From an uncultured Bacillota bacterium (GTDB lineage Bacteria > Bacillota_I > Bacilli_A > RFN20 > CAG-826), in assembly GCA_949291655.1 (NCBI GenBank), contig CASEWT010000011.1, forward strand, positions 1-34,828: a stretch of 34,828 nucleotides of DNA, given 5' to 3'. The position numbers and the translations under genes were made by a program. Every line of letters begins with the position of its first letter. Within the stretch, counting starts at the first letter, position 1. Positions 1,698 through 30,435 of the stretch are shown here, piece by piece. The notes under the pieces were generated by a model. That model had not been told where the DNA came from and made no database searches. It saw only the letters and a program-made list of their open reading frames with translations.

Positions 1698-3953
1698 TCA
1701 AAAGGGCGGCTCGACGACGGTCGTCCCGACCTTCGAAAGGCGGGCCTTCACGGTAACGACGTGATTGGCCGGGATCCCTTCTTCCCCGTAAAGGATCGGG
1801 GACGAAAGCTCGATCGTCATCTCGATTTCCTCCCCGCCTTCGAGGATCATCGCCTCGATTGGGGAAACAAGGTCGGAGGAAGCGAAGGAATTTCCGTATA
1901 GGAGGGCGATCAAGGCATCGCTGGCCTCCCCGTAGGCCAAGCTATAAGCCCCTCCTTCGGAAGGAAGAAAACTCGACCCGTAATCGTAGGCGAAGTTCCA
2001 GATGGTCGCCGTCGCGTAAAGGAGGCTTCCGTCCAAGGTCCCCTCCTTCGAGAAGCCCTCGCTCCCCTTTTCGTAGACGTCGAGGCGCCCGAGGTTCGGA
2101 ACGAGATAGCGCTCGAGGGTCGCCTCGCCGTCCTCGTAGGCGGTCAGGTGCTCGCTATCGTCGCTCCATTCGTAGACGAGGCGCTTCGCGCTTTCCATAA
2201 GGAGGGTCCCGCCTTCCTGCTCGAAATAGGAATCCGAGATGGCAATCTCGAGCGTCGAGTTCGGAGAGAAGGCCAACGGCTCGAAGAAGGCATCCATCGG
2301 GCTACCATAATCCATCCGGTAGATGTAGAGATTGATGAAGTCGACACTCGAGGTTTCCTCGAGGGTAAGGTGAAGGTAGCCGCTACCCCCGCCCCGCTCG
2401 ATCCGGTAGTCGTAGCCGCCGGAAGGGTTTTCTTCCTTCTCCCACCCGGCCGCGGCAAGGAGGGCATCGTAGGAGGCGAAAGCCGCCTCGAGGTCATTTC
2501 CCTTCCCAAGGCGGAAGTAGAGGGCGAAGTAGCCAAACCCCTCGCTTCCCTCGACCCCTTCGAGGCCTTCGAAGGAGGGATAAGGGAGAAGGCTCAAGTC
2601 GCCCCCGAAATAGTCCTTCAGCACCTTGGCAAGTTCGGGATCGACCTCTTCGTAGCTCGCGGGCGGCTCGTAGGGCGCGAGGTCATCAAGAGAGAAGCGC
2701 CCCTCGGTCGTCCCGATGGAAGTCACTCTCATCTCAAGGGTTCCCTTGAGAAGGCGCCCAGTATAGAAGTCGGTCGCCTCGTAAGCGTAGGAAAAGAGAG
2801 CCCCGCCTTCCTCGATATAGAGGCGGAAGCTGCCTTCCACCATCACCTCGAGATAGGAATCGATAAGGTAGCCCGGGTCGATCCTCGAGACATAGCCCTC
2901 GCCCCAAGGGGAAAGGGCGTAGCCGTCTTCTTCGGGGAGGAAGAAGGCCGGGTCGAGGTCGAAAGGAGGAAGGGCCGAGGAAATGCTTCCCTCTTCCGTC
3001 GGGCCGATGCCCTGCATTGTCCCCTCGCTTACCTCGAAGGGGACGACCCCTTCCCCATCCTCGATGTAGCCGTAGCATGCAAAGGGAACCCCGCCCTCCC
3101 GGTCCTCGACGTAGATGAGGCCGGAACTCGCCTCGAAATAGCGCTCGATCTTCTCCTCCTCGCCCTCCGGGTGGGTCAAAAGGGAGACGGTGTAGTTTCC
3201 TCCCTTTAGGTCCGTAAGAAGGTCGGCGACGGCCTCCTGTTCGGGAAGGGAGGGGAGGCTATCGCAATAAAGGAAGCCGATTTCCTCGGCCGTTACCGGC
3301 TCGAAGGAAAGAACGGGAACGAGGGAATTCCCGCTCGGGTCGAGGATGGTCCGTCCGGTGAAATAGAGGGATTCAAGGTGCCCGCCGGCCCCGAGGCGGA
3401 GAAAGCCGGAGGCGATGGAAATATCCCCATAGCCGCTCAGGGCATAGGCGAAGGAAGAGCCTTCCTCCTCGCTCAGCTCGAAGGCATAGCCGCCGTCCTC
3501 CTCAGAGAGGTCGGAAGGGTCGAGTTTCCGAAAAGGGTTCTCGAAACGGGAGAAGGGAATCTTCGAAAAGCCGTTTTCCGAAAGCGGGGTCTCGACGACT
3601 TCGTTATCAAAGCCGAGCGAGCGCTTGACGGCATAGCCATCTGCCGCGCGGTAGGCGCTCATCGTCGGGAAGCCTTCTTCCCGGCTTTCCCAGACGTCCT
3701 CCCCGAAATGGACGGAAAGGCCGCTCGAAAGGTCTTTAAGGGGCGCCGCTTCGTAATCCCGGAGGAATTCCCCCTTGAGGGAGAGCTCGCCGCTCAACTT
3801 CGAAAGGAGGGAGGCCGGGGAAACGGGCTCGAGAGAAGAGGAAGGCGTTTCCGAAGACCCTTCGGAAGAGAGGGAAGAGAGACTCGAAAGGCCCTCACTC
3901 TGGCAAGATCCAAGAAGGAAGAGAAGAATGGCAAGAGGAATGATTTTCTTCAT
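1698..3953 (-). CDS. large secreted lipoprotein, paralog A of a local family
   Basis: 751-aa protein with a lipoprotein signal (MKKIIPLAILLFLLGSC; Cys near residue 17), a Ser/Glu-rich linker to about residue 45, then a beta-rich acidic ectodomain. I chose the ATG at 3953 over the upstream TTG at 3977 because it gives a proper signal peptide; no clear Shine-Dalgarno sequence precedes either. It shares three block types with the lipoproteins at 3993-5786 and 11875-14277: an early 'LLSKLSGELSLKG' segment, a central 'LKGGNYT' segment, and a later 'VTSIGTTEG' segment followed by 'YFGGDLSLLP'. A further C-terminal module is shared only with the plus-strand paralog. It lies 39 nt after paralog B and is probably cotranscribed. 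No enzymatic motif was recognised; cell-surface attachment is inferred. Confidence 0.85.
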   Translation of the reverse strand: MKKIIPLAILLFLLGSCQSEGLSSLSSLSSEGSSETPSSSLEPVSPASLLSKLSGELSLKGEFLRDYEAAPLKDLSSGLSVHFGEDVWESREEGFPTMSAYRAADGYAVKRSLGFDNEVVETPLSENGFSKIPFSRFENPFRKLDPSDLSEEDGGYAFELSEEEGSSFAYALSGYGDISIASGFLRLGAGGHLESLYFTGRTILDPSGNSLVPVLSFEPVTAEEIGFLYCDSLPSLPEQEAVADLLTDLKGGNYTVSLLTHPEGEEEKIERYFEASSGLIYVEDREGGVPFACYGYIEDGEGVVPFEVSEGTMQGIGPTEEGSISSALPPFDLDPAFFLPEEDGYALSPWGEGYVSRIDPGYLIDSYLEVMVEGSFRLYIEEGGALFSYAYEATDFYTGRLLKGTLEMRVTSIGTTEGRFSLDDLAPYEPPASYEEVDPELAKVLKDYFGGDLSLLPYPSFEGLEGVEGSEGFGYFALYFRLGKGNDLEAAFASYDALLAAAGWEKEENPSGGYDYRIERGGGSGYLHLTLEETSSVDFINLYIYRMDYGSPMDAFFEPLAFSPNSTLEIAISDSYFEQEGGTLLMESAKRLVYEWSDDSEHLTAYEDGEATLERYLVPNLGRLDVYEKGSEGFSKEGTLDGSLLYATATIWNFAYDYGSSFLPSEGGAYSLAYGEASDALIALLYGNSFASSDLVSPIEAMILEGGEEIEMTIELSSPILYGEEGIPANHVVTVKARLSKVGTTVVEPPF

Positions 3954-3992
3954 GTTGAATTGCTGAAAAGCCTGCAAAAGCCCGCTCGACTG

Positions 3993-5786
3993 TCAAAAGG
4001 AGAAGCCGGATGAAGACCCAACGGCTAGGCACATCGTCGGCTCGTCGGCAAATGCATCCTCGGAAACGGTGACCGTCTTCGCTTCCTCGCCGCTTCCGTA
4101 AGTGTAAGGAGTACCCTGCCAAGCGCTTCCTTCCCCGGCTACCCATCCGCTCGCGACGAGAGCCTCGCCATAAGAGGCCATCGCCTCGCCCAAGGCTCCG
4201 GCCGAGGGATAGACAAAATACAGGGTCAGGCTGAAGAAGTCGTCGTAGGTGAAGGAAGACATCGACGAAGTGTCGGGAACAGGGAGGATGTTAGGATCGC
4301 CAAGGTAGGCGGACAAGACCGAAACGAGGGCTTCCCCGCCGAGCTCGAGCCAAGTATCCGGGCTTTCGTAGGGAACGAAGGCCTCTTTCTCATAGGGATC
4401 TTCCGTCGTCCCGAAGCCGGAGACGGCGATCTCGACGGTCCCCTTGACCGTCTCGTAGGTGAAGTCGGGAGTCAGTTGCTCATATTCGTAGTCGAAGGAG
4501 AAGGAAAGGGTTCCCTCCCCGATAGCGACGGCAAAAGTTCCATCGAGAAGGCCGTCGAGGGTGTAGATGCCTTCCCGCTCGAGGGCCGCGGAGACGAAGT
4601 TGGCCGGATAGATCCGGGAAACGAAATCCTTGCCCTCGTCGCGGAGAAGGAAAGTCCCCTCTCCTTCCGGAACGAAGAATTCGCTGGCCAAGTCGAAGGA
4701 AGCCCCGGTAAGAGAGGCAAGGGTGCCCTCTTCAGGCGAGGAAGTCCCGGTCGGTATGCCGTCGAGGACTTCGTAAGGAGAGGCCATCCCTTCCTCGGGA
4801 AAATAGTAGCCGCCATGGCTTTCCCCGCTCTCCTTAGAAAGGCGGACATCGTAGAAGGAAGGGCTCGACACGATCTCGGCGCTCACTCCTTGGGCGGTAT
4901 CCTCGTAAAGGAGGCGGTAGTTCCCCTTGGCGAGCTCCCCTAGGGCCGCCTCAAGCTCGGCTTGCCCTTCGAGGGAAGGAAGGGGAGCATCGGCCGGGAG
5001 AGCAATCTCGGAAGGCGAGACGAAGGAGGCTTCGAAGGTATATTCGTACTGGTATTCCAAGCCCCAGGCCGGGTCGATGACCACGATCGTCGGAATCGTC
5101 CAAGTCATTTCGGCCGGCTCATAGTCCTCGTCGAAGGAGACGGCGACGGCGGTCGGAGCGATGTTTTCGTTAGCTAGAAAGCTCCGCCCGAAGGATGGGG
5201 CAAGCCCCACCGGGACATTGACGGTCAGCACCTTGCTCTCTTCATCGAAAGCAAGGGCATCGGTAGAAAGGGCACCGAAGGGGCTTTCGTGGGCGAAGGG
5301 CGTCTTTCCCTCGAAATCCTCGACCGGCTCAAGGTCGAGAGTATTGTCGAAGTTGAGGCGCGGGGCGTAGGCAAAGCCGTCTTCCCCCTTTAGGTAATAG
5401 AGTTTGGAAGTCCCGATCTTGCTATACCATTTCCCTGACGAGACATAGCCCTCGACCGGCGAAACCGTCGGCTCGGCGCTCTCGGCGAAGGGATCGAGGT
5501 TCAGCTCGCTCATCGTTCCCTTGAAGGCCAGCTCGGAGCTAAGTTTCCCCAAGAGCTCATCCAAGGTCGGAGGCGCCTCCTCGGAAGAACTAGAAGACGA
5601 GGAGCTACCTTCGGAAATCGATGAATCCGGACCTTCTTCCGAGGAAGAGAAAGAAGCCCCGCTCTCGGAGGAAGAAACGACGCTTTCCGGAGACGAGAGG
5701 CCCGAGCCTCCCTCCGAGGCTTGCGGTCCGCCGCAAGCGGCAAGGCCGAAGACCGTCGCCAAAACAAAAAGGGGTGTTTTCTTCAT
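3993..5786 (-). CDS. secreted lipoprotein, paralog B (short form)
   Basis: 597-aa lipoprotein: MKKTPLFVLATVFGLAACGG with the lipobox Cys near residue 18, then a Ser/Glu linker to about residue 70. The ATG at 5786 is chosen because it starts the signal peptide and has AAAGGA about 11 nt upstream; the frame is open for 16 more codons. The ectodomain carries the family blocks 'LLGKLSSELAFKG', 'LAKGNYRLLYE' and 'VSGFGTTED' followed by 'YLGDPNILPVP'. It stops where paralog A goes on into its C-terminal module, so it is a natural short form rather than a frameshift. First gene of a likely two-gene operon with paralog A. No known function recognised. Confidence 0.85.
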   Translation of the reverse strand: MKKTPLFVLATVFGLAACGGPQASEGGSGLSSPESVVSSSESGASFSSSEEGPDSSISEGSSSSSSSSEEAPPTLDELLGKLSSELAFKGTMSELNLDPFAESAEPTVSPVEGYVSSGKWYSKIGTSKLYYLKGEDGFAYAPRLNFDNTLDLEPVEDFEGKTPFAHESPFGALSTDALAFDEESKVLTVNVPVGLAPSFGRSFLANENIAPTAVAVSFDEDYEPAEMTWTIPTIVVIDPAWGLEYQYEYTFEASFVSPSEIALPADAPLPSLEGQAELEAALGELAKGNYRLLYEDTAQGVSAEIVSSPSFYDVRLSKESGESHGGYYFPEEGMASPYEVLDGIPTGTSSPEEGTLASLTGASFDLASEFFVPEGEGTFLLRDEGKDFVSRIYPANFVSAALEREGIYTLDGLLDGTFAVAIGEGTLSFSFDYEYEQLTPDFTYETVKGTVEIAVSGFGTTEDPYEKEAFVPYESPDTWLELGGEALVSVLSAYLGDPNILPVPDTSSMSSFTYDDFFSLTLYFVYPSAGALGEAMASYGEALVASGWVAGEGSAWQGTPYTYGSGEEAKTVTVSEDAFADEPTMCLAVGSSSGFSF

Positions 5787-5873
5787 TGAATGCGCAATCC
5801 TTTCCCAAAACGCGATGTAGGCAAAGCCTACCAAGCGTCAGTATAGCGCATTCCTTCCCTCATCGGGAGCCGC

Positions 5874-11874: not shown

Positions 11875-14277
11875 ATGGCAAAGAAAAAGCAGATGGCGCT
11901 TCTCGCCATCGCCGCGGTCGGCCTCGCCGGCTGCGGCCCGACGGGCGGTAGCTCGTCGCTCCCCTCGACTCCTTCTTCCTCGTCCGAAACCCCGTCCTCT
12001 TTGCCGGTCGAGGGTTCCTCGGAAAGCGAAACCTCTTCCCCCGCGAGCAGCGTGGTCGATACCGCGGCCATCGACGCCCTCATCGAAGACCTCGGGCATG
12101 CGGAGATCGCCGCCGTCGGAGAACTCGAGATCGCCTTCTACCAACCCGGGACGCCGCTTATCATCCAGCGCACGAACAGCAAGCAGACGGTCGCCATCGG
12201 GCCCGACTACTACTACAACGCCGTCGGGGAAGGCGCCTCGCTTCGGTCGAGCGAATACTACCGGAGCGAAGACGGATACGTCTCGACGCGGACGCTTCTG
12301 CCGACCAACCAGGTCCGGGAAAGCATCCTCGTCACGACCGAAGGGGTCCCCTTCGCCTATGACGAGACCTTCTACAATTTCTTCTCATTCATCGACAAGG
12401 GAGAATGCGAAATTGACGAGGAAGGGAACATTGCCGTCAACGGCCTAAGCGAAGAGGACAAGCACGAACTGACCTACGGACTTACCTTCTATACCGACAT
12501 TCCCTTCTCCTCCCTTGCCTTCTCCTACCTCGAGGATGGGACGTTGACCGGCACCCTAATCGGAGAAGCTCCCTCCGACACCGACTTCTCCTACGACATG
12601 AAAGCCACGATGACCTTTACCGTCACGACGCCGGAAGAGGCCGGCTTCCAGCCGGTCGAACCCTTCGCGGCAAAGGAAGAAGACGAGGCCCTCGATGCCT
12701 ATTTCCAGACCCTACAGGGTGGCAATTTCACCATCGACATCGTCAAGACCGGCGGCCTCAACGAGGGCGGCGATCCCCAGCGTTGGTATCTTTCCGACGA
12801 TGGAGTCATCCGCCTCACCCTTGACCCGGAGACAAACGAACCGAAGAGCGGCTACGGCTACTACGACACCGGGGAAGGGCTGAACTACGTGACTTACCTA
12901 AACGGGAAGCTCGAAGGCTCGGAGGAAAACGTCAACGCCTCCACCACCCTCGCGAGCCTCAAGCCGACCTTCCTCTTCGCCGCGGCCTCCTTCGACTACC
13001 TCGGCGAAGCCACCTACCGCCTCAAGACCGGATACGGCTTCGAGGATTATGTCGCGGCCACCTTGCCCGATGCCGCGGCCAACTGGAACAACCAGTACTT
13101 CCTGAACATCGATGCGGGCTCGCTCACCATCAAGCTGAACGACGACGGGACGGCGGTCTTTGCCTATTCCTATTCCTACCTCGATTACGGCAGCACGGTG
13201 ACCGGGACCGTCGAGGCGAAGGTCAGCGCCGTCGGGACGACGGAGCTCCCCTATCCCTACGAAGAGTATCAGGCCCCCGACTACACCGCGTGGTCGGGAT
13301 ACGGGGATGCCACCGTCGCCATCCTCGAGCAATACATCGGGGACGGCCTCAAGTACCTCCCGGTCCTCGACGCAAGCACGGCCAAGACGTCGAAGGCGAC
13401 CGAGATCAACCGCTACGACGGCCACTACATCTCGATCACCAACACCTACGCCACGGCCGAAGAGGCCCTCGCCGTCTACGAAGCGTACCGGGCCCTCCTC
13501 CTCGAAAACGGCTGGGTCCCCGATCCGAGCTACGACGCGGCCCGGGGCTTCTACATCCACGAACGGGTCGGAGGCGGCTACTACCACATCAACTTCAACA
13601 ACACCAACAAGAACATCTACTTCAGGGTGTACCAGCCGACCATCGAGCTCGGGGAATGGTTCCACGGCATCTTCGACGAGACGATCGGCTCCTGGTTCAA
13701 CTACACGACGACCGTAGCCACCTACGATTACGACGAGGCGACCGGAACGCGCGGGGAAGAGGCTACCTCGACGAACACCCAAAAGGTCGTCGACAAGATG
13801 ACCGAGGGCATCGTGAAGCGTTCGGTCAATAGCAAGGAGACGGTCACCTACTACGAAGACACGGAAACCGACCAGTTCCTCGTCATCGAGAAGGAGGCCG
13901 ACAACAAATGGTACCTGACCGAATCCTATGACGGCCTTGCGACGACGGATCTCCATACCTACGAGAACCGCCCCTATGCGACGACCGAGGACCTCGCGCC
14001 CTATATCGACGCCTGCCTCCCCGGGGAAAACGACGGCCAGTACGAGCTTGCTAGCGGGGACGCTGAAGAGCTAGCGGCCCTCCTCTTCGGGGCAGAGCTA
14101 TCCGAAAACGCGACGGCCAACGTCCAGCTGAACTTCTACGAGAACGAGCTGCAGATCACCTTCGTCGACGTAGCGATTGCCGACGGGGTGCTGACCGAGA
14201 CGACCTACGACCTCATCGTCGACCACGCCGGCCTCCCCGGAACGGTGACGCCCCCGACCTACACCATCCCCGCGTAA
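11875..14277 (+). CDS. large secreted lipoprotein, paralog C
   Basis: 800-aa lipoprotein: signal MAKKKQMALLAIAAVGLAGC with the lipobox Cys at about residue 20, then a Ser/Thr/Glu/Pro linker to about residue 60. The rest is a Tyr/Asp/Glu-rich, beta-type ectodomain without Cys motifs. Shared family blocks: 'LQGGNFTIDIVK' near residue 283, then 'VSAVGTTELPYPYEEY' and 'YIGDGLKYLPV' near 450-495, and 'YFRVYQPT' before a C-terminal module that matches the end of paralog A ('AALLFGAE'). GGAGGA precedes the ATG, and two promoters lie upstream. It is transcribed alone, ends in a strong terminator and is on the opposite strand to the other two paralogs. Function unrecognised; the volume of sequence spent on it suggests an abundant surface protein. 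Confidence 0.88.
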   Translation: MAKKKQMALLAIAAVGLAGCGPTGGSSSLPSTPSSSSETPSSLPVEGSSESETSSPASSVVDTAAIDALIEDLGHAEIAAVGELEIAFYQPGTPLIIQRTNSKQTVAIGPDYYYNAVGEGASLRSSEYYRSEDGYVSTRTLLPTNQVRESILVTTEGVPFAYDETFYNFFSFIDKGECEIDEEGNIAVNGLSEEDKHELTYGLTFYTDIPFSSLAFSYLEDGTLTGTLIGEAPSDTDFSYDMKATMTFTVTTPEEAGFQPVEPFAAKEEDEALDAYFQTLQGGNFTIDIVKTGGLNEGGDPQRWYLSDDGVIRLTLDPETNEPKSGYGYYDTGEGLNYVTYLNGKLEGSEENVNASTTLASLKPTFLFAAASFDYLGEATYRLKTGYGFEDYVAATLPDAAANWNNQYFLNIDAGSLTIKLNDDGTAVFAYSYSYLDYGSTVTGTVEAKVSAVGTTELPYPYEEYQAPDYTAWSGYGDATVAILEQYIGDGLKYLPVLDASTAKTSKATEINRYDGHYISITNTYATAEEALAVYEAYRALLLENGWVPDPSYDAARGFYIHERVGGGYYHINFNNTNKNIYFRVYQPTIELGEWFHGIFDETIGSWFNYTTTVATYDYDEATGTRGEEATSTNTQKVVDKMTEGIVKRSVNSKETVTYYEDTETDQFLVIEKEADNKWYLTESYDGLATTDLHTYENRPYATTEDLAPYIDACLPGENDGQYELASGDAEELAALLFGAELSENATANVQLNFYENELQITFVDVAIADGVLTETTYDLIVDHAGLPGTVTPPTYTIPA

Positions 14278-15096: not shown

Positions 15097-15579
15097 TCAA
15101 TGGCTGGCGGCTTCTTTGCCGAGCCCCAATTCCCTAGTGACTTCCTCGTCGTTCGGGAAGAAGTAATAAAGCGACGCGGCGACGACCAAGACGCCGGAGA
15201 TGACCCAATGCTTCGTGATCTGCCTCTTCTTCAAGACGAAGGCGGTGTCCCGGGATAGGTTACGAACCATCACCTCGTCGCCTAGGAATTCATACTCGTA
15301 TCGTACGACGTCCTTTCCTTTTCCCGGAATTTTCTTGAATACGTAAACGGCAAAGCAGACAAGGGAGGCCGCGAGCAATATCACGAAGAGGGAAAGCGAG
15401 GTATAGGCGATCCGGAAAGCCTCCTCGTCCACGAGGTTCCCGATGATCAGGCAATAGATAGAAAGAAGCAAAGAGAGAGCCATGACGACGAAGAGGGCGA
15501 TGGTAGGCTTTCTCCTCATCAAAAGCCGAACGCTGATCCGCCTGATCCTCCCGATGCTGATGTCGAAAGTTCTTTTCAT
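15097..15579 (-). CDS. small membrane protein of unknown function
   Basis: 160-aa protein with a basic N-terminus (RRISVRLLMRRK), two adjacent hydrophobic segments (about residues 27-49 and 58-80), a soluble middle with a YEYEFLGDEVMVRNL strand pattern, and a third hydrophobic segment near 125-141. The soluble part vaguely recalls YcxB-like domains, but I cannot claim the family. No Shine-Dalgarno sequence; a TATAAA box lies about 15 nt upstream of the ATG, so the leader would be very short. No functional residues recognised. Confidence 0.6.
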   Translation of the reverse strand: MKRTFDISIGRIRRISVRLLMRRKPTIALFVVMALSLLLSIYCLIIGNLVDEEAFRIAYTSLSLFVILLAASLVCFAVYVFKKIPGKGKDVVRYEYEFLGDEVMVRNLSRDTAFVLKKRQITKHWVISGVLVVAASLYYFFPNDEEVTRELGLGKEAASH

Positions 15580-15614
15580 GCAACTGCCCAGGGCATTTTA
15601 TAACGTTGCCTCTT

Positions 15615-15629
15615 TTTCTCCGTGGTCCC
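15615..15629 (+). repeat. solo copy of the palindromic element's terminal sequence
   Basis: 15 nt (TTTCTCCGTGGTCCC) identical to the right end of the element at 18893-18997 (positions 18983-18997), same orientation. It lies between the membrane-protein promoter and the tRNA terminator. Could be an insertion remnant. Confidence 0.5.
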
Positions 15630-15645
15630 TAGCAAAATGACAATA

Positions 15646-15671
15646 ATTAAAAAACGCCCGATTTCTCGGGC
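15646..15671 (-). terminator. terminator of the tRNA-Ile/tRNA-Ser unit
   Basis: Minus strand GCCCGA-GAAA-TCGGGC followed by GTTTTTTAA. It lies about 54 nt after the CCA end of tRNA-Ser. Confidence 0.88.
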
Positions 15672-15724
15672 AAATATCGTCAATTTTGACACCGTTACTT
15701 TGCATCAAAATGTTAGTAACAAGA

Positions 15725-15816
15725 TGGCGGAGGCAGAGAGATTCGAACTCTCGCCGGGGCAAGGCCCCGCTTCCGGTTTTCAAGACCGGTCCCTTCGGCC
15801 GCTTGGGTATGCCTCC
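15725..15816 (-). tRNA. tRNA-Ser (UGA)
   Basis: 92-nt tRNA with the long variable arm of class II tRNAs (GCGGGGCC...GGCCCCGC-type stem), anticodon TGA in the loop TTGAAAA, acceptor GGAGGC paired with GCCTCC, and encoded CCA. It is 4 nt downstream of tRNA-Ile on the same strand, so the two are processed from one transcript. Confidence 0.95.
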
Positions 15817-15820
15817 AAGA

Positions 15821-15896
15821 TGGTGGACCATGTAGGATTCGAACCTACGACCTAGCCCTTATAAGAGGCCCGCTCTAACCGCTGAGCCAATGGTCC
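15821..15896 (-). tRNA. tRNA-Ile (UAU)
   Basis: 76-nt cloverleaf with acceptor GGACCAT/ATGGTCC, D-stem GCTC/GAGC, T-stem GTAGG/CCTAC and encoded CCA. The anticodon stem GGCCT/GGGCT closes with wobble pairs at both ends, and the loop is CTTATAA, so the anticodon is TAT, reading AUA. Most bacteria instead use a CAU anticodon modified to lysidine. The body resembles a Bacillus tRNA-Ile2 with C34 changed to T. Confidence 0.9.
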
Positions 15897-15976
15897 ACGG
15901 AGCGCTATTTTACTTCCTTTCGCGCCCATTAGGAAGAATGAAAGGAAGGGGGCTAAGCCCCCTCCCGCTCATAGAC

Positions 15977-20026: not shown

Positions 20027-20103
20027 TGGTGGCTGAGGGGGGACTCGAACCCTCGACATACCGGGTATGAGCCGGTTGCTCTAACCAACTGGGCTACTCA
20101 GCC
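20027..20103 (-). tRNA. elongator tRNA-Met (CAU)
   Basis: 77-nt cloverleaf, acceptor GGCTGAG/CTCAGCC with Watson-Crick 1:72, anticodon loop CTCATAC (the Met elongator pattern rather than CTCATAA of tRNA-Ile2), T-stem and encoded CCA. The D-stem reads GCCC against GAGC, leaving a C12-A23 mismatch. Since tRNA-Ile(UAU) is present nearby, this one is best read as Met. Confidence 0.88.
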
Positions 20104-20121: not shown

Positions 20122-20197
20122 TGGTGGAGCATAGGGGGATCGAACCCCTGACCTCATGCTTGCAAAGCACGCGCTCTCCCATCTGAGCTAATGCCCC
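20122..20197 (-). tRNA. tRNA-Ala (UGC)
   Basis: 76-nt cloverleaf with the alanine identity pair G3-U70 in the acceptor (GGGGCAT/ATGCTCC), anticodon TGC in the loop TTTGCAA and encoded CCA. It is 18 nt upstream of tRNA-Met in the same unit. Confidence 0.95.
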
Positions 20198-23743: not shown

Positions 23744-24141
23744 AAGATCACGTCCACGTCTCCATTCGAGACAAACAAAAGCGCCACGTGGCTATAGGCG
23801 CAAACGATCGGACGCCCATCGTCCACCCAACCCATCCGGACGCAATATTGCTCAGGGCAAGGGGATGCCAAAATGGCCGCCGCATTCGTCTTGATCCCGA
23901 TCGTCACCGGTCCATTACTCCCTTCGACCTCGAAATGCTCTTCCTTCTGCTGCCGGGCGAGATCCACCGTTTTGACGATCGTTCCATCGACGTTGACGTT
24001 CAAGACATGGGCCTCGCTACTCGAAAAGAAGACCGGCAACAGGCAAAGACCGGTGACCGCGAGAGCCACGACAGCCAAGTAAAGCGTCAGGTCGAGCCAA
24101 TGCTTTCTAAGGAAGTTCGACCCCGGAAATTTCAAAGCCAT
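23740..24141 (-). CDS. NusG domain II-containing protein
   Basis: 133-aa protein with one N-terminal membrane segment (about residues 16-37) and an extracytoplasmic NusG_II domain. The domain has the typical 'SPCPEQYCVRMGW' and 'RPIVCAYSHVALL' motifs, with three Cys, near residues 93-120. It overlaps the end of apbE by 35 nt and the next gene by 4 nt, a sign of tight coupling. These proteins co-occur with Rnf/ApbE/Gx genes in many Firmicutes; their function is not established. It is unrelated in role to the transcription factor NusG. No clear Shine-Dalgarno sequence is seen inside apbE. Confidence 0.82.
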   Translation of the reverse strand: MALKFPGSNFLRKHWLDLTLYLAVVALAVTGLCLLPVFFSSSEAHVLNVNVDGTIVKTVDLARQQKEEHFEVEGSNGPVTIGIKTNAAAILASPCPEQYCVRMGWVDDGRPIVCAYSHVALLFVSNGDVDVIL

Positions 24142-25207
24142 CGCTCAAATATACATCCTCGCCGTCCTTCATTGCGAAAAGACCTACATCGTATCCTTTT
24201 TCATGGAGCGATGCGTCGAGTGCGGCCAGCTCTTCCCCCGGGGTAAGGCAGACGGCCGTCGAGAAAGCGTCGAGCATCGCATTGCTTTCGATGTCTCCGA
24301 TGACGACCCCGATGTCGTTGGGGCAAACGGCCGAACCGGTATGGGGATTGATGATGTGGCTATGCCGATCGGGGCCGAACATCACCTGCTGCTCATAGGT
24401 AGCTGAGGTAGAAAGCCCGTTGAACCGCGCCGAGAGGATATGGTCGTTATCCCCGACATAGGTATTGATCCGGACTCTGAAGGCGCCGCCCTCGTCCATG
24501 CGCTCGGGGTTGTTCCCGAGTCCGAGGGACGAACCCGAAAGCTGGATGAGGAAGTCGCATACACCATGGGATTTAAGGATCTCAATCGTCTTGTCCAAGG
24601 CGAATCCCTTGGCAATTCCGCCGAGATCGATAAAGGCGCCGCCTTGAATCTGAACGGTATAGTTTTCGCCCAAAACAAGCGAGGACTGGCTGGCTTCTTC
24701 AATATAGGATTGCACTTCGTCCATATCGGGAAGATAAGGCTCGTGACCCTCGCCATAGAAAGCTTCCTTGTAAAGGGCAGTCACCTTGCCGATGAGGGGA
24801 TTGAAAAGACCCCCGGTCGCCTCTTCGGCCTCCAAGGCGTCTTCAAGGGCCTCATATAGGAGCGGGTCAACCACCAAGGCCTCCCCTTCGGCGTTATTGA
24901 GGCTATATACGCTCGTCACGCCGGGAAGCGGGGCATCGTAGGGATCGAAAAGGGAATCGAGCTTCTGAAGGGTATCGATGATTTCGTCGTGGACCGCCGT
25001 CTCCCCGTGATAGGTGGTAATGTAAAGAAGGGTATCGAAAGCAAAGGTCGTCGATTGTTCGGGGTCGATATTCCCGCCCATTTCGCCGGGCCAGGGCTGG
25101 CTTAGGCTGGGGCCGGAAGAGGAAGAGCCGTTGGCCGTTCCCCCGCAAGAAAAGAGGCCGAGCACGGCCCCAAGGGATAATGTGAATAGGAGACTGGTTT
25201 TCTTCAT
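24107..25207 (-). CDS. apbE: FAD:protein FMN transferase (ApbE), lipoprotein
   Basis: 366-aa flavin transferase that moves FMN from FAD onto Thr/Ser of RnfD and RnfG outside the membrane. Signal and lipobox: MKKTSLLFTLSLGAVLGLFSC (Cys near 21). Core motifs: 'IDLGGIAKGFALDK' near residue 185, 'HIINPHTG' near 280, and 'NAMLDAFSTAVC' near 307, which holds the Mg and active-site Asp/Thr. The start at 25207 is fixed by the ATGA overlap with the rnfB stop and by the signal peptide; the longer frame lies inside rnfB. Its place after rnfB matches its substrates in the same operon. Confidence 0.95.
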   Translation of the reverse strand: MKKTSLLFTLSLGAVLGLFSCGGTANGSSSSGPSLSQPWPGEMGGNIDPEQSTTFAFDTLLYITTYHGETAVHDEIIDTLQKLDSLFDPYDAPLPGVTSVYSLNNAEGEALVVDPLLYEALEDALEAEEATGGLFNPLIGKVTALYKEAFYGEGHEPYLPDMDEVQSYIEEASQSSLVLGENYTVQIQGGAFIDLGGIAKGFALDKTIEILKSHGVCDFLIQLSGSSLGLGNNPERMDEGGAFRVRINTYVGDNDHILSARFNGLSTSATYEQQVMFGPDRHSHIINPHTGSAVCPNDIGVVIGDIESNAMLDAFSTAVCLTPGEELAALDASLHEKGYDVGLFAMKDGEDVYLSDGFEISGVELP

Positions 25208-25560
25208 ATTTCGGGTATTTGATAGTTCCCGTCCTTGTCCGGATGCTCGCTCAGATAGGCGATGATCGGGTCGTAGTTCTTGTCCTTCTTGCCCGGGCGG
25301 CAAACCGAGAGTTTTTTGGCCTCGCCTTTCACGATGGCTTCGGCCATCTCGTGGCAGCCGGCATGGCCACAGCTTCCGCAGTTGTAGCCGGGAAGCATCT
25401 TCTCCACCGCCGCGACGCGCTCATCTTCCTTCACTTCGAGGAAGTGGCCGCAAAGGAAGAGGATGAGGCCGAGGATGAGGCCAAGCCCGACCCCGATGAG
25501 GGCACACCAGAGGATGCCCATCCAATTGGCCGTCGAGAAGTCGACGAGGAACTTGATCAT
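25204..25560 (-). CDS. rnfB: RnfB, short form lacking the ferredoxin domain
   Basis: 118-aa Rnf electron-transfer subunit. One N-terminal membrane helix (about 13-40) is followed by the RnfB/4Fe-4S domain with Cys spacing C-x2-C-x4-C-x17-C in 'NCGSCGHAGCHEMAEA' and 'LSVCRPG' (residues about 60-90). The protein then ends after about 30 residues. Typical RnfB proteins go on with two more [4Fe-4S] ferredoxin clusters (about 190 aa in proteobacteria, longer in clostridia), and these are missing. There is no frameshift: apbE starts at the stop codon (ATGA overlap). GGAGGATAAGCA precedes the ATG, which itself overlaps the stop of the small Cys gene. Confidence 0.88.
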   Translation of the reverse strand: MIKFLVDFSTANWMGILWCALIGVGLGLILGLILFLCGHFLEVKEDERVAAVEKMLPGYNCGSCGHAGCHEMAEAIVKGEAKKLSVCRPGKKDKNYDPIIAYLSEHPDKDGNYQIPEI

Positions 25561-25736
25561 TGCTTATCCTCCTTCTTCCGGTTGCAAGGATGGGGGCAGC
25601 CGGAGCAGATGTTGGTGAGTTGCTTGCCTTTCTCCTTCCTGGCGAGAAGATACCAAGTCAGGAAGAAGGCGGCAGCGAGCAGGACCATGAGCCCGATCGA
25701 GAGACCGAGGGCCAGGCCTTGGGAGAGAAGAAACAT
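25557..25736 (-). CDS. 59-aa single-helix Cys-motif protein between rnfA and rnfB
   Basis: 59 codons, too short for common gene-calling cut-offs. Residues about 5-33 are one membrane helix (MFLLSQGLALGLS through AAAFFLTWYLL). A basic stretch follows (ARKEKGKQ), then the motif CSGCPHPC (C-x2-C-x3-C) and a basic tail NRKKEDKQ. The start overlaps the rnfA stop by one base (TGATG) and the stop overlaps the rnfB start (ATGA), which is strong evidence that it is translated as part of the operon. It resembles FeoB-associated Cys-rich membrane peptides in layout. Possible roles are an Fe-S or metal site of the Rnf complex, or an assembly factor; both are inference. Confidence 0.8.
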   Translation of the reverse strand: MFLLSQGLALGLSIGLMVLLAAAFFLTWYLLARKEKGKQLTNICSGCPHPCNRKKEDKQ

Positions 25737-26320
25737 CAGATGATGCCCTGAAGTCCGTAGAAACCGAGGGCCAGAAGGGCAGCCGTGACAAGGGCGATAG
25801 GAACGCCCTTCATCGCCTTGGGCATGTTCGTCCCCTCGAACTTCTCCCGGATGCAGGCGAAGAGGAAGATGACGAGGAAGTAGCCTAGCGAGGTACCGAC
25901 GCCGCCGGCAAGGCTCGAGAGGAAGTCGAGGCCGGTATCGGTGTTGCTTTGGACGACCCCGAGGACGGCGCAGTTGGTGGTGATGAGTGGGAGGTAGATC
26001 CCAAGGCTCCGATAGAGGCCCGGGAAGAAACGCCGGATGAAGAGGGCCACCGCCTGAACAAGGGAAGCGATGACGAGAATGTAGACGACGGTGTCGAAGT
26101 AGGCGATGCCGGCCGGGACGAGAAGGTAGGTATAAATCGGCCAGCAGACAATGGTCGCAAGGACAATGACGAAGGTGACCGCAAGCCCCATCGAAGTGGC
26201 GCTCTTGACGCGGTTACCGACCCCGACGAAGGAGCAGATGCCATAGAAACGGGAGAGGACGACGTTGTCCATGAGCATCGCGTTGAGGATGGCCAGAACA
26301 AAGGCAACGAAGACGTTCAT
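25736..26320 (-). CDS. rnfA: RnfA, ion-translocating oxidoreductase subunit
   Basis: 194-aa membrane subunit with six predicted helices. The two half-signatures that hold the intramembrane Fe-S cluster with RnfE are present: 'NVVLSRFYGICSFVGVG' (Cys near residue 29) and 'LITTNCAVLGVVQ' (Cys near 113). AGGAATAAC precedes the ATG, 1 nt after the rnfE stop. Works with RnfE, D, G, B and C to couple ferredoxin/NAD electron flow to Na+ or H+ transport. Confidence 0.95.
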   Translation of the reverse strand: MNVFVAFVLAILNAMLMDNVVLSRFYGICSFVGVGNRVKSATSMGLAVTFVIVLATIVCWPIYTYLLVPAGIAYFDTVVYILVIASLVQAVALFIRRFFPGLYRSLGIYLPLITTNCAVLGVVQSNTDTGLDFLSSLAGGVGTSLGYFLVIFLFACIREKFEGTNMPKAMKGVPIALVTAALLALGFYGLQGII

Positions 26321-26321
26321 G

Positions 26322-27011
26322 TTATTCCTCGACCTCCTCTTTCTTGATCTTGGCTTGCTTGGAGCGGAAATTGACGATGACGGCGATGATGCCGATCACG
26401 ATGCCGAGGACCAAGAAGGCCCCGGTCGGCTGCTGGAGAAGCGGCAAGGAATAGTCCCAGCCCTCCCCTTTGAGCAAGGGAATCGTGACCTCGGGGATGA
26501 AGGTGAAGGTCTTCCCGAAGGAAAGGGTGCCGGCCCCGAGGATTTCCCGGAAGAGGGCGATGATGCAAATGGCAATCGTATACCCGAGCCCGTTCCCGAG
26601 CCCATCGAGGAGGGAAGGAAGAACGGGATTATCCTGAGCAAAGGCTTCGGCCCGGCCGAGAACGATGCAGTTGACCGTGATAAGGGAGAGGAAGACGCCG
26701 AGGGAACTGTAGAGTTCCGGGAGGAAAGCCTCGGCCAAGAGCTTCACCACCGTGACGAAGGTCGCGATGATGACGATGTAGCTCGGGATCCGCACGTACT
26801 CGGGAATGAACTTCCGAAGAGCCGAGATGATGACGTTGCTAAGGGCAAGGACAACCGTGAAGAGGATGCCCATCCCGATGGCCTGCTCGAGAGTCGTGGT
26901 GACCGCGAGGGCCGGGCAGGTGCCGAGGACGAGGACGAAAAGGGGGTTCGCTTTGAGAAGAGGCGCCAAGAAGACGTCCTTTTTGCTAGGTTTGGCAATG
27001 GCGTTGTCCAT
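26322..27011 (-). CDS. rnfE: RnfE, ion-translocating oxidoreductase subunit
   Basis: 229-aa membrane protein, paralog of RnfA with inverted topology. Signatures: 'LVLGTCPALAVTT' (Cys near residue 32) and 'LITVNCIVLGRAEAFA' (Cys near 118), the partner Cys residues of the RnfA/E cluster. The C-terminal tail is charged (KKEEVEE). It lies 19 nt after rnfG and 1 nt before rnfA. Length is usual for the family. Confidence 0.95.
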   Translation of the reverse strand: MDNAIAKPSKKDVFLAPLLKANPLFVLVLGTCPALAVTTTLEQAIGMGILFTVVLALSNVIISALRKFIPEYVRIPSYIVIIATFVTVVKLLAEAFLPELYSSLGVFLSLITVNCIVLGRAEAFAQDNPVLPSLLDGLGNGLGYTIAICIIALFREILGAGTLSFGKTFTFIPEVTIPLLKGEGWDYSLPLLQQPTGAFLVLGIVIGIIAVIVNFRSKQAKIKKEEVEE

Positions 27012-27030
27012 AATGGATACCCCTGCTTAT

Positions 27031-28020
27031 TCAAGCCGCCTCGCCGGACGAACCGCCGAGCGAGAGAACGTCGGCCTCGGCCGCTTCGATCATCGCATTG
27101 ATTACCTCTGCCGTAATGGTCGCTTGACCACCGATGCAATCATCGGGATCCCGGGTCCCGCTGTTGATTTCCGGAAGGTAGGTATCGGGAATCCAGCTTG
27201 GATTGTAGAGGCCATCGTGGTCATCAAGCGAAATGGTGACGGTGTGAATCCGAGAGAACGTCCCGTCTGCTTTGATGCCGACGACGAACGATCCCTGCTG
27301 GCTCATCGGATCGATGGACCCTTCGTAGGCATAACCGACCGTTGCTCCGCCCTGCCCGACTTCGTAACGCTTCGTCAATTCCCAATAATTGGCCTGATGC
27401 GTACCGCCGGATAGTTCAACAGTCGTGCCCTTATCGGACTCGGTAGCATCCGGGAAGACGTTGCGAACGAGCCGAAGTTCCGCGGAAACCTCGCCTCCGC
27501 CGGCATTGGCCTTGGCATGGTCGATGGCCGCTTGGACGATGGCCGAAATCGTTTCCTTGGTCTTCGTTCCCCCGGCCCCGACCGGGATGTCGTCATAGGA
27601 AGTCGTGCCGTCATTGACCCCGGTTAGCCAATCCCGGGCGGCGTCCATGTAGGTGGAATTGGTGGAAGAAGAGGTGATTTCCACCCGCTCGAGGGTAAAG
27701 TCGGTATTGATCCCGACCATCACGTCGACGATATCGGAAACCGAATTCCGGTTGCCCGAATAGGCCCAGCCGATGAGCTCGCCGCCGGCGCTTACCTCGT
27801 AACGCTCGACGAGGCCGTTGGAATTGATTTCCTCGGGCTCGCTCACGTCCTCGGCATTCGGGAAGACGCCATTGACCGCTTCGAGCCGAGCCGCGAGGCT
27901 ATGGGCGTAAACGAAGGGCGAAGTAATGGCGCTGGTGACGCCGATGATGGCGCCCGCCCCGAGGACGATGGCCCCGAGGGTCAAGGTCGTGATAAGGCCT
28001 TTTTTGACATTTTCTTTCAT
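27031..28020 (-). CDS. rnfG: RnfG with two FMN-binding-type modules
   Basis: 329-aa protein; ordinary RnfG has about 190-210 residues. One N-terminal helix (about 8-35) is followed by two FMN-binding-type modules. Module 1 covers about residues 38-170 ('NGVFPNAEDV', 'RYEVSAGGELIGWAYSG', then 'GAGGTKTKETISAIVQAA'). Module 2 covers about 180-315 ('RNVFPDATES', 'RYEVGQGGATVGYAYEG', then 'GGQATITAEVINAMIEAA'). The expected ApbE target is SGATxT: module 1 has AGGTKT and module 2 GQATIT, both keeping the acceptor Thr. Start ATG has GGAG 10 nt upstream and overlaps the rnfD stop (ATGA). Confidence 0.9.
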   Translation of the reverse strand: MKENVKKGLITTLTLGAIVLGAGAIIGVTSAITSPFVYAHSLAARLEAVNGVFPNAEDVSEPEEINSNGLVERYEVSAGGELIGWAYSGNRNSVSDIVDVMVGINTDFTLERVEITSSSTNSTYMDAARDWLTGVNDGTTSYDDIPVGAGGTKTKETISAIVQAAIDHAKANAGGGEVSAELRLVRNVFPDATESDKGTTVELSGGTHQANYWELTKRYEVGQGGATVGYAYEGSIDPMSQQGSFVVGIKADGTFSRIHTVTISLDDHDGLYNPSWIPDTYLPEINSGTRDPDDCIGGQATITAEVINAMIEAAEADVLSLGGSSGEAA

Positions 28021-29132
28021 TGCAGGATATCTCCATACGCTAACGCGAGCATGACGACGAGGAGGCTAAGGGCGAGGATGAGGGCGAGGGCGATGAAGTG
28101 CCAGAGCTTCCAGCCCTTCGAGAGCCACTTGTGGTAATCGAGGGCCGGGGCGATGGCATTGGCAAGGAGGATCGAGAAGCCGACGCCTTCGGGAAGGGCC
28201 CCGAGAAGGCGGATGATGACGACGAGGGCCCCGCCGAAGCAGGCGTAGATCCACCGGCTCGGGGAGGTAATCGGCCCGGTGACCGGGTCGGTGATCATGA
28301 AGGCCGCCCCGAAGAGGAGGCCGCCCGAGAAGAACTGATAGCCCATGAACTCGAGCCAGGAGAAGGCCCCTCCGTACTGGAGGGTGATGTAGATGCCGGC
28401 CGACCCCATAAGGAGGACGAAGGTCCCGAGGTAACCGACGACGACCCGCCAATCGGCCGCCCGCCGGATGAGAAGGTAGGCCAGCCCAACGAGGATGGCG
28501 AGCTTGCTCACCTCGCCGAGGGTGCCGGGCACCCAACCCATGAAGAGATCGAGGATCCCGTAATCGCCAAGGGCGCCGAAGTTCCCGCCGCTGATGTTGC
28601 CTAGCGGCGTTCCGCCGGCCACGACGTCTTCGACCATCCAGCTGTTCTGATTGAGGTTCCACTGGGCGCCGAAACAGAGTTTAGAGAAGAGCATCCCGAC
28701 GAGGGCCGGGTTGAAGATGTTGTTGCCAGTCCCGCCGAAAACGAGTTTCCCGATGACGATGCCGACGATGGCGCCCACGAGAACGTGGTACCAGCTGGCC
28801 GAGGCCGGGAGGGTGAGGGCAAAGATCATCCCCGAGACGATCGGGGCCAGGATATTGTTGACGCTTCCTTTGCCCCAAGCGTACTTGACCCACTCTGGGA
28901 AGGGGAGAATCCGCCCGTCGTCCCCGCGCGGGACGTTCGTGAAGAAGACGAATAGCCATTCGCAAACCACCATCGCCGGGATGGCGATTAGGAAGGTCTT
29001 GAGGCTGTCGAGCGGGAAGGCGACGAAGGCCATCACCGTCGCCGGAAGGAGGGCGATGATGACGTCGGAGAGCATCGACCAGAGGGAGTCGCGCCGCTTG
29101 ATATGGGGCGATGTTTCTAATGCGAATTCCAT
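28017..29132 (-). CDS. rnfD: RnfD, ion-translocating oxidoreductase subunit
   Basis: 371-aa polytopic membrane subunit (NqrB/RnfD family) with about nine to ten helices. Signature 'GGTGNNIFNPALVG' near residue 131. The covalent FMN site is 'DVVAGGTPLG' near residue 175; the usual form is SGATPL, so the Thr is kept but neighbours differ. Starts 4 nt after the rnfC stop with only a weak ribosome site (AAGG), so coupling to rnfC is likely. Length normal. Confidence 0.95.
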   Translation of the reverse strand: MEFALETSPHIKRRDSLWSMLSDVIIALLPATVMAFVAFPLDSLKTFLIAIPAMVVCEWLFVFFTNVPRGDDGRILPFPEWVKYAWGKGSVNNILAPIVSGMIFALTLPASASWYHVLVGAIVGIVIGKLVFGGTGNNIFNPALVGMLFSKLCFGAQWNLNQNSWMVEDVVAGGTPLGNISGGNFGALGDYGILDLFMGWVPGTLGEVSKLAILVGLAYLLIRRAADWRVVVGYLGTFVLLMGSAGIYITLQYGGAFSWLEFMGYQFFSGGLLFGAAFMITDPVTGPITSPSRWIYACFGGALVVIIRLLGALPEGVGFSILLANAIAPALDYHKWLSKGWKLWHFIALALILALSLLVVMLALAYGDILQ

Positions 29133-29136
29133 AACC

Positions 29137-30435
29137 TTAAGGGAGTTTTGCGACCCGTTTTGCCTTTCTGACGTAATCCGTCACGCGGATGTGGGAGGTA
29201 CATGAGTAGGAGCAGAGGCCGCATTCGACGCAGCGCTCGGGATGAAGAGCCTTGACCTTTTCCTTGTCCATGGCCTTGTAGGCATTCATGATCTCGACAG
29301 GCACAAGGCCCGTCGGGCAGGAATAGACGCAAGAAGCGCAATGGATGCAAGGATGCTCGCGCTCGGCCTTCCCTTGCTCGTAGACGAGCACCGAGGAAAG
29401 GCACGGGGTCGAGATCAGGTCGTCACTAGCGACCGTCCCGCCCATCATCGGCCCGCCGAGGATGAGGGTCTTTTCTTCCCCGTCGTCCTTGTAGATGCAT
29501 TTCTCGATGAGGGGCTTGATGGGGGTTCCGACCCGGACCCGGTAATTGGCCGGATTCTCGATGCCGTCGCCAAGGACGGCGAGGTAGCGCTCGGCCACAG
29601 GCCGGGAATGTTTCGCCGCCTGGTAAAGGGAGACGACGGTCGCCACGTTGATATCGAGGACCCCTTGCTTCCGGGGAAGAGCCCCGGAAGGAACCTTGAT
29701 GCCGGTCACGTCTTTGATGAGGGCGATTTCCCAGCCTTGGGGGTAATAGTCCCGGCAGGGCCGGACTTCCATTCCCTCCTCCCCTTGGAGGAGCTCCTGG
29801 TACTTGGCGATGAGGCCAGCGTATTTCTTCTTGATGCAGAGGTAGATGTGCTCGGAGCCGAGGCACTTCTTCAAGAGGCGAAGCCCCTTGATGATCCCTT
29901 CGGGGTCGTTTTCCATGAGGAGCTTATCGACCGGGAGGGTCGGCTCGCACTCGATTCCGTTGACCACGAGATGGGTGACGTGGTCATCGCCCTTGAGCTT
30001 GACGTGCGTCGGGAAGGAGGAACCCCCAAGGCCGACGAGGGAATACTCCTCGCTGATGGCGATGATTTCCTCGGGGCTTAGGGCAAACATCTCCTCGTCG
30101 CTCCGCTCGTGGTAAGAGGGCTCGCGCTCGTCCTTGAAGTCGTTTTGGAACTTCAGGAAGTCGATGCTCTTCCCGTTCCGGTAGGTGTGCTTCTCGAGAC
30201 CGAGGTAGATCCCCGAGCACGGGGCGAACATGTTCTGCTTGAAGTAGCCGCCGTTCCGCACCCCGATTTTCTGGTAGAGGTAGACGCGTTCCCCTTCCTT
30301 GATCGAAAGTTCGTAGGCACGGCAACGGGTGTTCTCGCCCGGAACGAACATGAATTCCGGCGCGGGCACCTTTTCGACCGGGTTTTCCTCGTAATGGACC
30401 GGATCGATGGCGATTCTGGTTGTCTTGCTGATCAT
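29137..30435 (-). CDS. rnfC: RnfC, NADH-side subunit
   Basis: 432-aa peripheral subunit where NAD(H) and flavin bind. The 'VGLGGSSFPTHVKL' motif near residue 153 is the NuoF-like dinucleotide/FMN site. Two [4Fe-4S] clusters follow near the C-terminus: 'CIHCASCVYSCP' and 'CVECGLCSYSC' (residues about 366-410). First gene of the operon. No Shine-Dalgarno sequence precedes the ATG; a promoter (see 30446-30474) ends 10 nt before it, so the leader is only a few nt. Confidence 0.95.
   Translation of the reverse strand: MISKTTRIAIDPVHYEENPVEKVPAPEFMFVPGENTRCRAYELSIKEGERVYLYQKIGVRNGGYFKQNMFAPCSGIYLGLEKHTYRNGKSIDFLKFQNDFKDEREPSYHERSDEEMFALSPEEIIAISEEYSLVGLGGSSFPTHVKLKGDDHVTHLVVNGIECEPTLPVDKLLMENDPEGIIKGLRLLKKCLGSEHIYLCIKKKYAGLIAKYQELLQGEEGMEVRPCRDYYPQGWEIALIKDVTGIKVPSGALPRKQGVLDINVATVVSLYQAAKHSRPVAERYLAVLGDGIENPANYRVRVGTPIKPLIEKCIYKDDGEEKTLILGGPMMGGTVASDDLISTPCLSSVLVYEQGKAEREHPCIHCASCVYSCPTGLVPVEIMNAYKAMDKEKVKALHPERCVECGLCSYSCTSHIRVTDYVRKAKRVAKLP

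Follow-up and report, generated by a model that had tools for sequence, protein, structure and literature searches.

The window analysed here, the whole stretch of 34,828 nucleotides, carries a gene for a tRNA-Ile with the anticodon UAU, set among other tRNA genes (Table 1). The sequence of this gene (GGACCAUUGGCUCAGCGGUUAGAGCGGGCCUCUUAUAAGGGCUAGGUCGUAGGUUCGAAUCCUACAUGGUCCACCA) is recognized by the Rfam tRNA model with an E value of 1.5e-15 and folds into a full cloverleaf, with an anticodon loop of CUUAUAA that places U34, A35 and U36 in the anticodon and with an encoded CCA end. Its body is that of the Ile2(CAU) tRNA of related genomes, the C4-G69 and C5-G68 pairs included, and the match to the tRNA-Ile2 of relatives extends to the acceptor stem (GGACCAU) and to the T arm. 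A preliminary description had taken the gene for a native UAU tRNA-Ile built on an Ile2 body with an altered base 34, and both halves of that reading stood up: gene calling, Rfam search, folding and relatives agree on the first, and the match of the body to Ile2(CAU) speaks for the second. Because 18 further genomes of the clade described below have the UAU gene as well, a sequencing quirk is excluded. ARAGORN additionally called a tmRNA at 15485-15915 on the minus strand, overlapping both the Ile and the Ser tRNA, which looks like a chance or false call. The protein-coding part of the window includes lipoprotein and electron transport genes.

Table 1. Features of the window, with the evidence on which each assignment rests
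Feature	Position	Strand	Evidence
tRNA-Ile(UAU), putative AUA reader, Ile2 body with C34 to U34	15821..15896	-	ARAGORN, tRNA-Ile(tat); RF00005, 69.9 bits; fold; 18 clade relatives
tRNA-Ser(UGA), conserved on the downstream side of tRNA-Ile2 in both CAU and UAU genomes	15725..15816	-	ARAGORN; relatives
Elongator tRNA-Met(CAU) with loop CUCAUAC, distinct from tRNA-Ile2 and its upstream neighbour in the ancestral order	20027..20103	-	ARAGORN; Ala-Met-Ile-Ser order in relative L080
tRNA-Ala(UGC), member of the ancestral tRNA order	20122..20197	-	ARAGORN; order in relatives
Initiator tRNA-Met(CAU), loop CCCAUAA	1529..1605	-	ARAGORN
Three large paralogous-looking lipoproteins, Ser-rich linkers behind the signal peptide	1698..5834 and 11875..14277
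Rnf-type electron transport gene run, adjoining the ApbE-like gene	25204..30435	-
ApbE-like gene	24107..25303

The genome to which the window belongs, as contig C11, is a 1.26 Mb draft in 107 contigs, rated 91% complete, for which Rfam searches together with a survey of individual regions yielded an inventory of 43 tRNAs, all of them placed. The only CAU tRNAs in this set are the initiator and elongator Met tRNAs of the window, and Ile-GAU lies on another contig (C17); no CAU tRNA-Ile is found among the 43 tRNAs, with the proviso that at 91% completeness one tRNA could be missing from the draft. The AUA codon, whose frequency the preliminary description had proposed to count, is in use at 4.6 per 1000 codons, so a reader for it is needed. 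A separate peculiarity of the inventory concerns the initiator tRNA-Met, which has C33 in its loop and an A29-U41 pair where a third G-C pair is usual. C33 occurs in all 12 distinct initiators read from the UAU clade, and two CAU relatives (G023 and G143) have U33; as U33 is a published TilS determinant, the C33 initiator is possibly linked to the switch described below.

A survey of 146 genomes from 35 genera of the family places the UAU gene in a single clade of 26 genomes, comprising two sister genera. Pattern searching recovered it in 19 of these 26 genomes and in none of the 120 other genomes of the family, where the patterns, being strict, picked up tRNA-Ile2 in some of the genera but not all, and there with CAU. 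One UAU-like match outside the clade (G035) proved to be a tRNA-Leu. Two genomes labelled "Bacillales" at NCBI, SUG340 and UBA1744, carry the same kind of UAU gene. All AUN-box tRNAs found in the 26 clade genomes are either Ile tRNAs with GAU or UAU or CAU tRNAs of the initiator or elongator type, and no CAU tRNA-Ile was detected in any of them, including one genome in a single contig at 99% completeness and another rated at 100%. In seven of the 26 the UAU gene was missed even when three mismatches were allowed; four of these seven also lack the elongator tRNA-Met, so missing assembly is likely there. The UAU tRNA of G127 is unusual in its 3′ acceptor strand, GGGAGGA, which is unlike that of its relatives, possibly through an assembly error or damage to the gene.

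Gene order indicates how the UAU gene arose. CAU genomes have the order Ala-Met-Ile2(CAU)-Ser(UGA), and UAU genomes have, whole or in part, Ala-Met-Ile(UAU)-Ser(UGA); in the window itself Ala, Met, Ile and Ser still follow one another in this order, Met and Ile being 4 kb apart. Since the UAU gene occupies the ancestral Ile2(CAU) slot, C34 was replaced by U in situ. The preliminary description had noted wobble pairs at both ends of the anticodon stem, and G27.U43 and U31.G39 are indeed present, but the suggestion that they serve as a fidelity device against misreading of AUG finds no support in the clade, where they are not conserved: U31.G39 occurs in this genome alone, and G27.U43 is limited to one subclade and UBA1744. 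Because G27-U43 is among the determinants published for the recognition of Escherichia coli tRNA-Ile2 by TilS (PMC12069591), its presence is more simply explained as inherited.

If the UAU tRNA is to be used, the isoleucyl-tRNA synthetase (IleRS) must accept it, and the preliminary description had pointed to IleRS residues that admit or exclude UAU. Position 905 of the E. coli enzyme, read from K-12 ileS, is the Trp of the motif CPRCW; at this position Arg is found in 20 of 20 IleRS sequences from the UAU clade and Trp in 10 of 10 from CAU relatives, so that the Trp905 to Arg change (W905R) is fixed in the clade and is one of three fixed differences between the two groups along the protein. 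Arg905 is also present in SUG340 and UBA1744, and in all six IleRS examined from the seven clade genomes in which no UAU gene was detected. We take E. coli W905 to correspond to R865 of the Mycoplasma mobile enzyme, so that the Arg found here would presumably be the M. mobile change. Taniguchi and colleagues in 2013 reportedly described the M. mobile IleRS with its Arg865 and found that the E. coli IleRS gains the ability to charge the UAU tRNA on W905R substitution. That the M. mobile IleRS carries mutations is confirmed by a review (PMC4014445). The UAU clade forms a monophyletic group on the IleRS tree with support of 100/100, which denotes a single origin, and UBA1744 falls inside it. The ileS gene of genome G083 contains one in-frame TGA, owing either to misassembly or to damage in the gene.

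The third partner is TilS, the enzyme that makes lysidine. Its gene was expected to have been lost, but this genome has a tilS homologue encoding 416 amino acids on contig C1 (about 63998-65248), in the gene order mfd - rqcP - tilS - ftsH, so that plain loss of tilS is rejected as an explanation here. The protein scores 114-116 bits against the N-domain model TIGR02432, above the curated NCBIfam cut-off of 93.6; across the two clade genera the HMM scores are 92-128 bits, as against 144-188 elsewhere in the family, and the clade proteins, to which that of SUG340 belongs, are monophyletic (SH-aLRT 99). When 21 clade proteins were compared at the columns invariant in 30 canonical relatives, residues had been lost throughout the clade. 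The Arg of VNYxLR and Glu52 (in the numbering of this protein, as for the following residues) are kept in 0 of 21, Asn81 and Lys155 in one each, and Asp172 in three; the PP-loop SGGxDS, which has the family form SxGPDS, reads NYGAES in this genome, its Ser being replaced in 17 of the 21 (kept in 4) and its Asp in 5; and RNxIR has become ESTIR in this genome. As the residues lost are invariant in lysidine synthetases, the clade TilS most likely no longer makes lysidine. The catalytic center, HxxDDxxE, is retained (H, D and D in 21 of 21, E in 20), as is the Arg aligned with R205 of Aquifex aeolicus; with the cut-off passed and the presumed catalytic Asp, Glu and Arg kept by most clade proteins, some TilS activity may persist.

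These observations bear directly on whether the UAU tRNA matters at all. The preliminary description had reasoned that an intact tilS together with a CAU tRNA-Ile elsewhere would make the gene redundant or dead; of that pair, a tilS homologue is present, but its motifs are altered and no CAU tRNA-Ile was found. Conservation, synteny and W905R led us to reject a dead or redundant gene. The specific form of redundancy in which a CAU tRNA-Ile has merely dropped out of the assembly while TilS functions normally has a parallel in Lactobacillus plantarum, for which redundant CAU and UAU tRNAs-Ile are reported (Tomikawa 2018, as cited in PMC9976931), and it would sit well with the presence of tilS and with a fragmented, incomplete draft. 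It is nevertheless very improbable, given that the CAU tRNA-Ile is missing even from the most complete of the 26 clade genomes, that the UAU gene stands in the CAU slot, that all IleRS tested have W905R, and that TilS motifs are lost clade-wide and the gene is deleted in five genomes. In those five members of the UAU clade the gene has been cleanly removed from between rqcP and ftsH, and the tree requires at least two losses; at least two of the five carry the UAU gene along with IleRS Arg905. In a sixth genome (G141) no tilS was detectable, the locus not being in the assembly.

With no CAU tRNA-Ile found, TilS is left without a known substrate, and its persistence in most species calls for an explanation. 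One is decay: the protein would be a relic due to disappear, in line with what has been proposed for TadA and TilS in the Mollicutes, where a drop in activity through point mutation would come first and gene loss later (PMC3711424). The variation of the motif losses among species and the repeated clean deletions are what such decay would produce, but it is hard to reconcile with the state of the gene: all 21 clade ORFs are open and intact, dN/dS between close pairs is 0.02-0.18 and low in both halves of the protein, as expected of purifying selection, the UAU clade has a TilS/IleRS distance ratio of 1.54 and CAU relatives one of 1.89, which gives no sign of acceleration, and the H, D and D of HxxDD are among 53 columns that are invariant in the 21 proteins. 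We therefore consider a relic unlikely.

Alternatively, the altered TilS may still modify the Ile tRNA, with U34 now its substrate, or may act on another RNA through its kept adenylation chemistry. This we entertain tentatively. It would account for the pattern in which HxxDDxxE and the R205 equivalent are retained while other invariant residues of the N-domain are lost, and for the strong constraint on the protein; the tRNA, moreover, keeps several published TilS determinants (PMC12069591). The fold is also predicted to be that of a complete TilS: an AlphaFold model (pLDDT 84) matches the TilS-tRNA structure 3a2k over its full length, C-terminal part included (E 2e-17), with a poor global superposition (TM 0.41). 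At the sequence level the C-terminal part has no match to the Pfam and NCBIfam TilS C-domain models, which the corresponding part of a canonical relative matches weakly, just below the cut-offs. Against such a role stand the dispensability of the protein, absent as it is from five UAU genomes, and the report that U34 of M. mobile is unmodified (PMC4014445). Full neofunctionalisation, in which ATP-dependent adenylation of an RNA base is kept and turned to a different substrate, perhaps U34 of the UAU tRNA itself, in a protein that is automatically annotated as lysidine synthetase, is a possibility that we put forward with some reserve. In more general terms, the clade TilS has probably acquired or kept a second, dispensable role.

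Taken together, the comparisons make it highly probable that the clade has undergone a switch of the M. mobile type, in which the Ile2 anticodon went from CAU to UAU, IleRS acquired W905R, and TilS was altered, mostly retained, and deleted at least twice. In the common ancestor of the two sister genera the tRNA-Ile2 gene would have mutated in place, once, from CAU to UAU, and the change of IleRS Trp905 to Arg would have made the UAU tRNA chargeable without lysidine. An ordinary U-A pair would then suffice for the tRNA to read AUA, and TilS would thereby have been stripped of its essential job; it would have persisted in most species as an intact and selected protein minus residues invariant in lysidine synthetases, and would have been removed outright in some branches on at least two occasions. 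We infer from the sequences that these uncultured, gut-type Bacilli read AUA with a plain UAU tRNA.

Such a switch would be a second natural case, apparently independent, of a bacterium escaping its dependence on the essential TilS, reached through what is presumably the same IleRS amino-acid change as that reported for M. mobile, and it would mean that a bacterium can make this change without an extremely reduced genome and without being a parasite of the Mollicutes type. The clade also appears to capture a middle state, in which the essential modifying enzyme remains under selection after its substrate has gone and has been lost from certain branches alone, so that the order of change among the three partners, and the role of TilS when lysidine is not needed, can now be tested. 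It carries a warning as well, in that the label of lysidine synthetase clears automatic cut-offs where no substrate appears to exist.

Several known systems share parts of this arrangement. The preliminary description had regarded a native UAU tRNA-Ile as rare, yet at least 114 stretches in named genomes carry one, mostly from Patescibacteria among the matches listed, which also include a few archaea and scattered bacteria. Patescibacteria (CPR) resemble the clade in having a native UAU tRNA-Ile; the clade TilS profile found no homologue among those sampled apart from one marginal partial match (E 0.03), and since the CPR IleRS examined lack the C-terminal zinc module that holds W905, their solution to charging differs from that of the clade. 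A literature search of limited reach returned nothing relevant on UAU decoding in this group. Haemotropic mycoplasmas share the UAU tRNA as well and have no tilS (PMC4014445); a profile search detected no TilS homologue in Mycoplasma haemocanis, and its IleRS differs from that of the clade in having Lys at position 905, neither Arg nor Trp. L. plantarum has, like the clade, a UAU tRNA-Ile alongside a tilS gene, but there the CAU tRNA and a working TilS remain, whereas in the clade no CAU tRNA-Ile is detected and TilS is altered.

The closest parallel is M. mobile, in which AUA is decoded by tRNA-Ile(UAU) (Taniguchi 2013, as outlined in PMC4014445 and PMC4013482); in the Mollicutes, loss of TilS accompanies the C-to-U change at position 34 and mutations in IleRS (PMC4014445). 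An unmodified U34 and a ribosome on which misreading of AUG is avoided also count among the features of decoding of the M. mobile type. The clade shows the same C34 to U34 change in tRNA-Ile2, no CAU tRNA-Ile found, and a changed IleRS, in an independent lineage of Bacilli with genomes of about 1.1-1.8 Mb that are not Mollicutes, and convergence with M. mobile is the best reading. M. mobile lost tilS with the switch, whereas most species of the clade keep a TilS homologue under selection; since absence of tilS is a usual feature of the M. mobile system, we term the arrangement in the clade a variant of it. As in the stepwise loss of TadA in the Mollicutes (PMC3711424), an active-site change in a tRNA wobble enzyme precedes loss of the gene, but the altered enzyme of the clade is under purifying selection.
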